This document shows, in pieces, positions 22,696 through 26,169 of a stretch of 35,960 nucleotides of DNA. The notes below the pieces were generated by a model, which was not told the origin of the DNA, made no database searches, and was given only the letters and a program-made list of their open reading frames with translations. Made by a program: the position numbers and the translations under genes. Source of the stretch: a bacterium (GTDB lineage Bacteria > JAMCPX01); the NCBI GenBank assembly GCA_021787655.1, contig JAJYLM010000003.1:1-35960 (forward strand). The letters run 5' to 3'. How positions within the stretch are numbered: the first letter of the stretch is position 1; every line of letters begins with the position of its first letter.

Positions 22696-23640
22696 TTACG
22701 CCTCGAGTGCTTCCAGAACAAGGGCCGTCAACAGCGGAAACATAATTTCGTGGTGTCCTGTTATTGCATATCCATGACCCCCGGTCTTGGTCGGCCTCTT
22801 GACAACATTTTCGAGGGGCCTGTAGTGCTGGATCATGTCCATATTGATGGCTGTAAAATCTTTTATGTCATATCCGATGTTTCGCGCGATGGACAGTGCC
22901 TTCAGGAACACTTCCGGAAGAATGACGGCAGAACCGATATTGATAATGACGCCGTTCTCCAGCATCGTCACGATGGACGCAAATTTCCTGAAGTCGATCT
23001 CTGTTGCTTTTCCGATGGCAGCACCGTCAGCCTTCGGGTGCATATGGATGATGTCGGTCCCGTATGCGACGTGGACCGTGAGGGGGATGCCGAGTTTATA
23101 CGCGTTGTAGGTTATACTCATGTCCTTATGCGGGGGAGCGCTGTCGGCAAGCATCTTGCCTGCTGCTTCTCCCAGACCCATATTGTGCGCGGCGCCCGCA
23201 ATGATGGCATCGTTGAGAAGCGATCCTGTTTCCTCTGCCATACCGAAACTCCCGTCTTTGATGGTGACGGCAACGTCTTCGGATGTCTCACCGATCAGGG
23301 CGATCTCCGTGTCATGGATAACGCCGGCCCCCTGCATTGCCAGGGCGGTGATAATCTTCTTTTCCATCAATTGAATGACCAGCGGGGCAAGTCCGACCTT
23401 GATGACACTGTCTCCCATTGCAAGTATCACCTGCTTGTTGTTTTTCTTTGCGGCGGCTATCGCTGCGGCTGATGCGAGAAGTTCATCGGCTTTGAGAAAC
23501 TTCGGCAGGCTGCCCATGAATTCCTTCACCGACATTCCCGTGCGGTAGGGCAGTGCAAAATCCTGTATTTTGACCTTGTTCTTCCGTGTTTTGATTGAAC
23601 TCGTTGTTACCCGTTTCAGATCGATCGGTTCTGCTTTCAT
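22696..23640 (-). CDS. Conserved protein of uncertain function, possibly deoxyhypusine-synthase-like Rossmann fold
   Basis: AMQGAGVIHDTEIALIGETSEDV, GSFGMAEETG, GTDIIHMHPKADGAAIGKATEIDFRKF; resembles DHS-like proteins in part, but I do not see the eukaryotic/archaeal DHS catalytic Lys motif. Confidence 0.45.
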   Translation of the reverse strand: MKAEPIDLKRVTTSSIKTRKNKVKIQDFALPYRTGMSVKEFMGSLPKFLKADELLASAAAIAAAKKNNKQVILAMGDSVIKVGLAPLVIQLMEKKIITALAMQGAGVIHDTEIALIGETSEDVAVTIKDGSFGMAEETGSLLNDAIIAGAAHNMGLGEAAGKMLADSAPPHKDMSITYNAYKLGIPLTVHVAYGTDIIHMHPKADGAAIGKATEIDFRKFASIVTMLENGVIINIGSAVILPEVFLKALSIARNIGYDIKDFTAINMDMIQHYRPLENVVKRPTKTGGHGYAITGHHEIMFPLLTALVLEALEA

Positions 23641-25308: not shown

Positions 25309-25325
25309 ACAAAGCAGGATCCTGT

Positions 25326-25344
25326 AACGGTGCTCAGCACCGTT
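25326..25344 (+). terminator. Hairpin just downstream of the YwiC-like gene
   Basis: AACGGTGC-tca-GCACCGTT, perfect 8-bp stem 18 nt after the stop; no immediate U-tract. Confidence 0.4.
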
Positions 25345-25465
25345 CTCCGTACACCGCGCGCGCTTTTTCCCGAGGGAAATTGGTTTTTTTTGCCGGTGCG
25401 GCAATCCCGCAAACAGCAACAATAAAAAATATCGTCATCAAACGAAAAAAATATTCTTTTTCATC

Positions 25466-25495
25466 TTGACAAAACGATCTTCATCGTGGTAATTT
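25466..25495 (+). promoter_or_regulatory. Putative sigma70 promoter of an orphan transcription unit
   Basis: TTGACA (25466-25471), 18-nt spacer, TAATTT (25490-25495); the spacer contains the dyad ACGAT-cttc-ATCGT (25474-25487). Confidence 0.6.
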
Positions 25496-25699
25496 AAAGC
25501 ACATGAAGAACTTTAATCATGCAATTAAAGGAGATGATCATCAATACTTCATGTCGTAGGAATACGTACTTTGTTGATGGTGAGCATCCGTCTGTTTCTT
25601 TCAGCGATCTGTTGTTACTTCTTACCTTTTTTCTCCTGAATAAAAAAAATATTGGATTAATGCACGCTTTCTATCAAAAAATCGGGAGGTGAAAGAATA

Positions 25700-25750
25700 A
25701 TGGCTACTAAGAAAAAAGCAAAAAAAGCAACCAAGAAAAAGAAGAAATAA
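25700..25750 (+). CDS. Lys-rich 16-aa micro-ORF MATKKKAKKATKKKKK
   Basis: gggaggtg SD 7 nt before the ATG; 10 of 16 residues are Lys; bracketed by a promoter-like sequence and a strong hairpin terminator. Below the ORF-track size cutoff. Confidence 0.6.
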   Translation: MATKKKAKKATKKKKK

Positions 25751-25781
25751 TGAATGAGTTCTGTTGTTGACTCGCTGCTTA

Positions 25782-25817
25782 GGGCTGAACCTGCTTGGAC
25801 GGGTTCAGCCCCCTTTT
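25782..25817 (+). terminator. Rho-independent terminator of the orphan unit
   Basis: GGGCTGAACC-tgcttggac-GGGTTCAGCCC, 10-bp perfect stem (GGGCTGAACC/GGTTCAGCCC), then cccTTTT. Confidence 0.8.
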
Positions 25818-25907
25818 CATAGAGAACAAATTGAGCATCATCTGATAGAAAGAATATAATAAATTATCATCTCACCTGTCAATATTTTTTTGTTTTGAAC
25901 AAAAAAT

Positions 25908-26006
25908 CCTCTATTTATAAGATAGTTGCAATAAATTCCTCTATAAAATAGAGGTGATCTCTTGTAATTCTAACATAACTATCTATAAAATAGATAGTTA
26001 TGTTAG
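25908..26006. repeat. Cluster of related AT-rich dyads
   Basis: cctctatttataagatag (25908-25925, weak); CCTCTAT-aaa-ATAGAGG (25938-25954); CTAACATAACTATCTAT-aaa-ATAGATAGTTATGTTAG (25970-26006, perfect 17-bp arms). Confidence 0.85.
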
Positions 26007-26169
26007 GGAAGAAAATCATCACTTACAGGAACGATGCCTGCTGAAGTATTAAAAACTGTGCTTTATTTCAATTAGTTGTGTATTTCCTGCGCGCCATTGC
26101 TATAGATTGATCTATGGAAAAACACGACAAACTCATGCATTGTGAGAGCCGGACTCTCCGGACTGCGGG

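Follow-up and report, generated by a model that had tools for sequence, protein, structure and literature searches.

A conserved, stand-alone gene for a lysine-rich micropeptide, faced by a candidate antisense promoter, in three bacterial genera

Gene finders normally drop proteins so small and simple as a short run of lysines as noise, and the locus described here raises the question of whether such a run can be a gene in its own right, and under what control. It lies in a stretch of 35,960 nucleotides (the window, which is contig C52 of a 2.02-Mb genome), within a gap of 861 bp between the 3′ ends of two convergent genes (ends 25308 and 26170), and the AT-richness that a preliminary description had ascribed to this gap is borne out by a GC content of 36.8% versus 51.4% for the window. 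The promoter, the leader of ~200 nt, the strong Shine-Dalgarno (SD) sequence, the micropeptide MATKKKAKKATKKKKK, and the terminator named in that description are each found where it placed them (Table 1). Its interval, 25309–25817, does enclose these elements but leaves out an opposing promoter at 25853–25882, and its inventory, correct for the parts it named, overlooked both this conserved antisense promoter and a conserved mini-ORF upstream. We regard it as reasonably probable that the locus is an autonomous gene, opposed in antisense, whose product is a polycationic micropeptide with polyanions as its targets.

Table 1. Positions of the elements of the micropeptide unit in the window
Feature	Position	Strand	Remarks
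Promoter P+ (TTGACA-N18-TAATTT)	25466..25495	+	kept as CATCTTGACAAA.. in seven copies
Mini-ORF A, putative (MKNFNHAIKGDDHQYFMS)	25503..25559	+	ATG 31 nt past the -35 box, at the expected transcription start
Frame B	25519..25692	+	open through the leader, ends in the TGA of the SD GGGAGGTGA
Shine-Dalgarno GGGAGGTGA	25684-25692	+	8 nt pair exactly with the 3′ end of 16S rRNA from a congener
Micropeptide gene (MATKKKAKKATKKKKK-stop)	25700-25750 (ATG..TAA)	+	SD and frame kept
Intrinsic terminator	25782..25818	+	stem GGGCTGAACC/GGTTCAGCCC, compensatory changes across genera
Antisense promoter P- (TTGACA-N18-TATATT)	25853..25882	-	directed leftward, through the terminator and micropeptide gene into the leader

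The micropeptide gene is the only ATG-initiated ORF of 12–40 aa with at least 60% lysine in the window, and none of 1000 dinucleotide shuffles of the gap contained such an ORF. The SD, which complements the 16S 3′ end of G002 (GGATCACCTCCTTTCT), is of the GGRGGTGA type and is followed by ATG in all six copies of the peptide gene, a pattern with one match in the window versus 0.26 expected. The peptide itself reads MATKKKAKKATKKKKK in the window, MATKKKAKKTTKKKKK in G001, MATKKKAKKATKKKK in G002 and G003, MATKKKAKKAAKKKKK in G006, and MAAKKKAKKAAKKKK in G007, i.e., 15–16 aa made almost only of lysine plus alanine or threonine in the pattern M-A-T/A-KKKAKK-A/T-A/T-K4-5, with neither a hydrophobic segment nor any proline, aromatic, or arginine residue. 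Substitutions between copies fall nearly all on the third codon position and none on the second, with the SD, start, and stop being kept: the changes at positions 1/2/3 number 1/0/6 between the window and G006 (p = 0.0045), 2/0/7 between G001 and G006 (p = 0.0015), and 0/0/4 between the window and G003 (p = 0.027), with p = 0.016 for G001 and G003, where the null places these base changes anew along the ORF and the p values are pairwise among related copies and thus not independent tests. The pairs window/G001 and G003/G007 are not significant alone (p = 0.64 each), because so short a gene yields few changes, and the changes in the remaining pairs are likewise too few or less informative. The sole length difference between copies is one whole lysine codon, and a copy with the terminator kept and the ORF frameshifted, which the preliminary description had named as grounds for abandoning the peptide, was looked for and not seen, the frame being intact in 6/6 copies. 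On comparison of its copies the ORF is therefore well supported as a real peptide gene, and the substitutions provide good evidence that a translated product is under selection.

This selection bears directly on the alternative of a small RNA with an incidental micro-ORF, which had been put forward beside the peptide and is disfavored by the coding pattern and by the kept SD and start: with third-position changes, a whole-codon indel, and SD, start, and stop all preserved, a pure small-RNA reading is unlikely. The broader version, a regulatory or dual-function RNA in which a conserved head, the pre-terminator stretch, and the terminator would form a base-pairing RNA and the peptide would be secondary, we also judge unlikely; the unit is unusually short, the sequence of its terminator stem is kept (GGGCTGAA..TTCAGCC) and absent elsewhere in these genomes, and CTGCTTAGG upstream of the terminator is partly conserved, yet the window has 0 Rfam matches at the gathering threshold, the leader is mostly poorly conserved, and the only convincingly covarying helix of the unit is the terminator. 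The perfect 10-bp stem reported for the latter was confirmed at 25782–25811 (12 pairs by the tool's count), followed by CCTTTT, and it pairs in every copy, with 100% of cells paired and C-G to U-A compensatory changes. That the stem might be a genome-wide repeat was also considered and rejected, its sequence being unique to the locus of the unit in each genome.

A search of related genomes for the micropeptide with its SD and terminator, which the preliminary description had proposed as a check, found it in three genera. The sample comprised nine species of the phylum, all of one family and several with fragmentary genomes, and DNA and pattern searches placed the unit in eight of them. The peptide gene is intact in six, namely in the window, in G001 (whose contig starts just upstream of the SD), G002, and G003 of the same genus, and in G006 and G007 of other genera; in G004 and G008 the promoter and leader are present and the contig stops short of the peptide gene. 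G005 (92% complete) is the sole species of the nine in which these searches detected no copy. The contigs of G001, G004, and G008 break inside the unit (L007 start, L008 start, and L032 start), and strains that differ here or a faulty assembly of the region may be the cause. Every genome that has the lysine ORF has exactly one, and a stricter lysine pattern matched only the six known copies in 289 genomes, while the SD-plus-lysine pattern, in 386 sampled genomes, matched outside the phylum only G073 and G219, in another context; a reversed control pattern gave 0 matches in the same 386 and 289 genomes. On this sequence evidence, the recurring unit is not due to chance.

The lysine-rich ORFs of G073 and G219 are like the micropeptide gene in their strong SD and lysine-rich start (M-A-V-K-rich), but unlike it in length (24 and about 47 aa) and in context, and they share neither leader nor terminator with the unit. 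They lie in an apparent operon, with an excisionase-like HTH gene before and a second lysine-rich gene after, the latter carrying repeated GYLYFIDK-type motifs (L011 1500–1878 in G073, L057 1500–1945 in G219), an arrangement that in these two unrelated genomes looks like a separate small-gene cassette. Homology to the micropeptide gene was rejected on the differing context and length, and the likeness is probably convergent. A search of the literature for lysine-rich bacterial micropeptides turned up nothing close.

The neighbors of the unit change from genus to genus. In that of the window it is flanked by a YwiC-like gene on one side and a gene for an outer-membrane barrel on the other. The gene preceding it in G006 and G008 is oriented away from it and is like a subunit of an electron-transfer reductase, the one following it in G006 is acyl-CoA-ligase-like, and the one preceding it in G007 is MFS-transporter-like (names in these three genomes read by eye); what stays together throughout is the segment from P+ to P-. 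In the flank of a YwiC relative outside the phylum (L002), the unit was not seen. The unit is thus autonomous because its neighbors differ in three genera; the earlier argument for independence, which started from the convergent genes, is valid only for the genus of the window, though its conclusion gains strength from the differing neighbors. With these, third-position changes, and the SD, start, stop, and terminator kept across three genera, the claim that a lysine micropeptide has a transcription unit to itself is well supported. The near-universal single copy, together with the size, charge, and strong SD, would also suit a tiny basic protein associated with the ribosome or with rRNA, like the smallest ribosomal proteins and not a general polyanion binder, but the gene is not linked to translation genes, has no detectable relative, and specifies a peptide that, as noted, lacks aromatic and arginine residues, so that we find this reading improbable.

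Other features of the surrounding sequence may be recorded here. Between P- and the outer-membrane barrel gene, at 25938–26007, lies a pair of A/T-rich hairpins, each with a TAAAA loop (CCTCTATAAAATAGAGG and CTAACATAACTATCTATAAAATAGATAGTTATGTTAG; ~16-bp stem), and in G002 and G007 dyads vaguely like them occur on the downstream side of the unit. The right half of the gap, adjoining the barrel gene, has at 26060–26115 a block kept within the genus (also in L005, L006, and L007), approximately CAATTAGTTGTG, then an A/T-rich dyad near TCTATATATAG. Farther away, at 22696–23640 on the minus strand, a deoxyhypusine-synthase-like protein of the GSU2086 family is encoded (NF052581, E 6.6e-128).

Exact matches to TTGACA-N17/18-TANNTT number two in the whole 36-kb window, versus 0.14 expected, and these are P+ and P-. 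The boxes of P+ (TTGACA at 25466–25471, TAATTT at 25490–25495) are separated by an 18-nt spacer holding the dyad CGAT-CTTC-ATCG, which had been pointed out before and is indeed present in the window, but which is kept only within the genus and shortened in some species. In each of the seven copies reaching that site, an ATG that opens mini-ORF A is found 30–31 nt past the -35 box, and the mRNA is probably leaderless because this ATG sits where the first transcribed base is expected. Mini-ORF A, a putative leaderless ORF, is 13–20 codons long, with the consensus N-x-E-I-K/R-G-x-x-Y and a stop at codon 19 in five of the seven copies (MKNFNHAIKGDDHQYFMS, MKHFNREIKGECYHNCTV (twice), MKDFNREIKGERYSYCTV, MKVINLEIRGDNYNYCSR, MSIGNPEIRGYDYHYGGQEV, and MKIFFNVRGVSYF). 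Its coding signal is suggestive only, with p of 0.02–0.04 in frame versus 0.29–0.52 in shifted frames for cross-genus pairs with G008, and no significance in within-genus pairs. Frame B is open or nearly so in six copies, with a chance of ~2–9% each per named frame, and in four of them its stop is the TGA of GGAGGTGA; neither amino-acid conservation nor a purifying signal was seen across the copies, so that a conserved 55–60-aa protein was rejected, and the frame may be a translated coupler or may be open by chance. Three further candidates in the leader were tried and rejected: a thermometer or riboswitch that sequesters the SD (its predicted accessibility ranges from 0.11 to 0.61 between species, so that no conserved switch is seen), a hairpin in the leader head (CTTTAAT/ATTAAAG, confined to the genus of the window), and reuse of a leader motif elsewhere in the genomes (matches near background, nearly all with two mismatches).

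P- recurs at a distance of ~40 bp beyond the terminator in each of the six copies extending to this site, in three genera, as TTGACAG-N17/18-TATAAT-like sequence on the minus strand; it is near-consensus (11/12 in the window and G002, 12/12 in G006, and 10/12 in G007), and CTGTCAA is invariant in the six. It serves neither neighbor, because it faces the unit and has the right-hand gene behind it. Such a promoter might drive a peptide of its own, a hydrophobic, Phe-rich mirror image of the lysine ORF (..FFFFLVAFFAFFLVAII..), and in the window the corresponding frame is open for 63 codons from the start site and membrane-helix-like; this we consider scarcely credible, since the window has no canonical start ahead of an internal TTG, G006 has a stop directly ahead of the hydrophobic stretch and then no start, G001 has upstream stops, and no conserved SD is visible on the minus strand, as against an SD, ATG, and terminator in all copies on the plus strand. 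Being blocked or without a start in G006 and G001, the minus-strand peptide was rejected. The convergent, 3′-overlapping promoters, kept in three genera, also recall a type I toxin-antitoxin pair laid out as in txpA/RatA (PMC7430163), in which the P+ mRNA would encode a growth-inhibiting peptide and a P- antisense RNA would overlap the 3′ end of that mRNA; this is quite unlikely, given that the product would be a soluble polycation, unlike type I toxins, for which hydrophobicity is described (PMC7430163), that a single, near-universal chromosomal copy is atypical, and that no terminator-like site for a short P- transcript was found within the unit.

For the autonomous, antisense-opposed micropeptide gene that we favor as the most economical reading, the following sequence of events is proposed. 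P+ would drive an mRNA of ~315 nt, probably starting at or beside the ATG of mini-ORF A, the strong SD would direct translation of the 15–16-aa polycation, and the mRNA would end at the terminator of the unit. P-, beyond this terminator, would fire toward the gene, and its antisense transcript, or polymerase collision, would hold down or pulse peptide synthesis. Going by its composition, the peptide would most likely be a free lysine tail with polyanions (RNA, DNA, or polyphosphate) as its ligands. Its gene is kept across the phylum as an independent unit with its own controls. If translated, it implies that a bare lysine tail can itself be a gene product, and it offers a very small test case both for how polyanions are condensed and for how a peptide other than a membrane toxin is controlled in antisense. 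A bolder version, which we put forward tentatively and think rather doubtful, is that of a phylum-wide minimal "free histone tail", a 15–16-aa polylysine protein made from a leaderless bicistronic mRNA with a dedicated antisense promoter; if true, few of the known proteins dedicated to condensing nucleic acid or polyphosphate would be smaller, and its control layout would be one so far tied to toxin loci.

Set against known systems, the locus has what is expected of a small gene, namely a frame kept with excess synonymous change (p 0.0015–0.027 in the informative pairs) and a conserved ribosome-binding site and start in six copies. In txpA/RatA, the toxin mRNA and the antisense RNA share an overlap of ~120 nt at the 3′ end of the former (PMC7430163), and the unit likewise appears, on sequence evidence, to have a small-peptide mRNA facing an antisense promoter past its 3′ end (P-, six copies, three genera); its product, however, is a hydrophilic polycation, mostly lysine and 15–16 aa long, in place of a small hydrophobic membrane-directed toxin, and it is conserved like a housekeeping gene. 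Because its product is not hydrophobic, we do not class the unit with the type I toxin-antitoxin systems, and the likeness is in layout only. AlgP, which has a tail resembling that of histone H1, associates with the nucleoid and with granules of polyphosphate (PMC9239181). The histone H1-like tails of AlgP and PhaF and the micropeptide are all lysine/alanine-rich, disordered, and strongly cationic, but the former are long C-terminal domains on an N-terminal helical domain (the KPAA repeat region of AlgP has 154 aa), whereas in the latter a tail-like sequence without proline is the whole product, which places it outside a family defined by an N-terminal domain and a long KPAA-type repeat tail, and makes the lysine/alanine tail of AlgP its nearest functional analogy.
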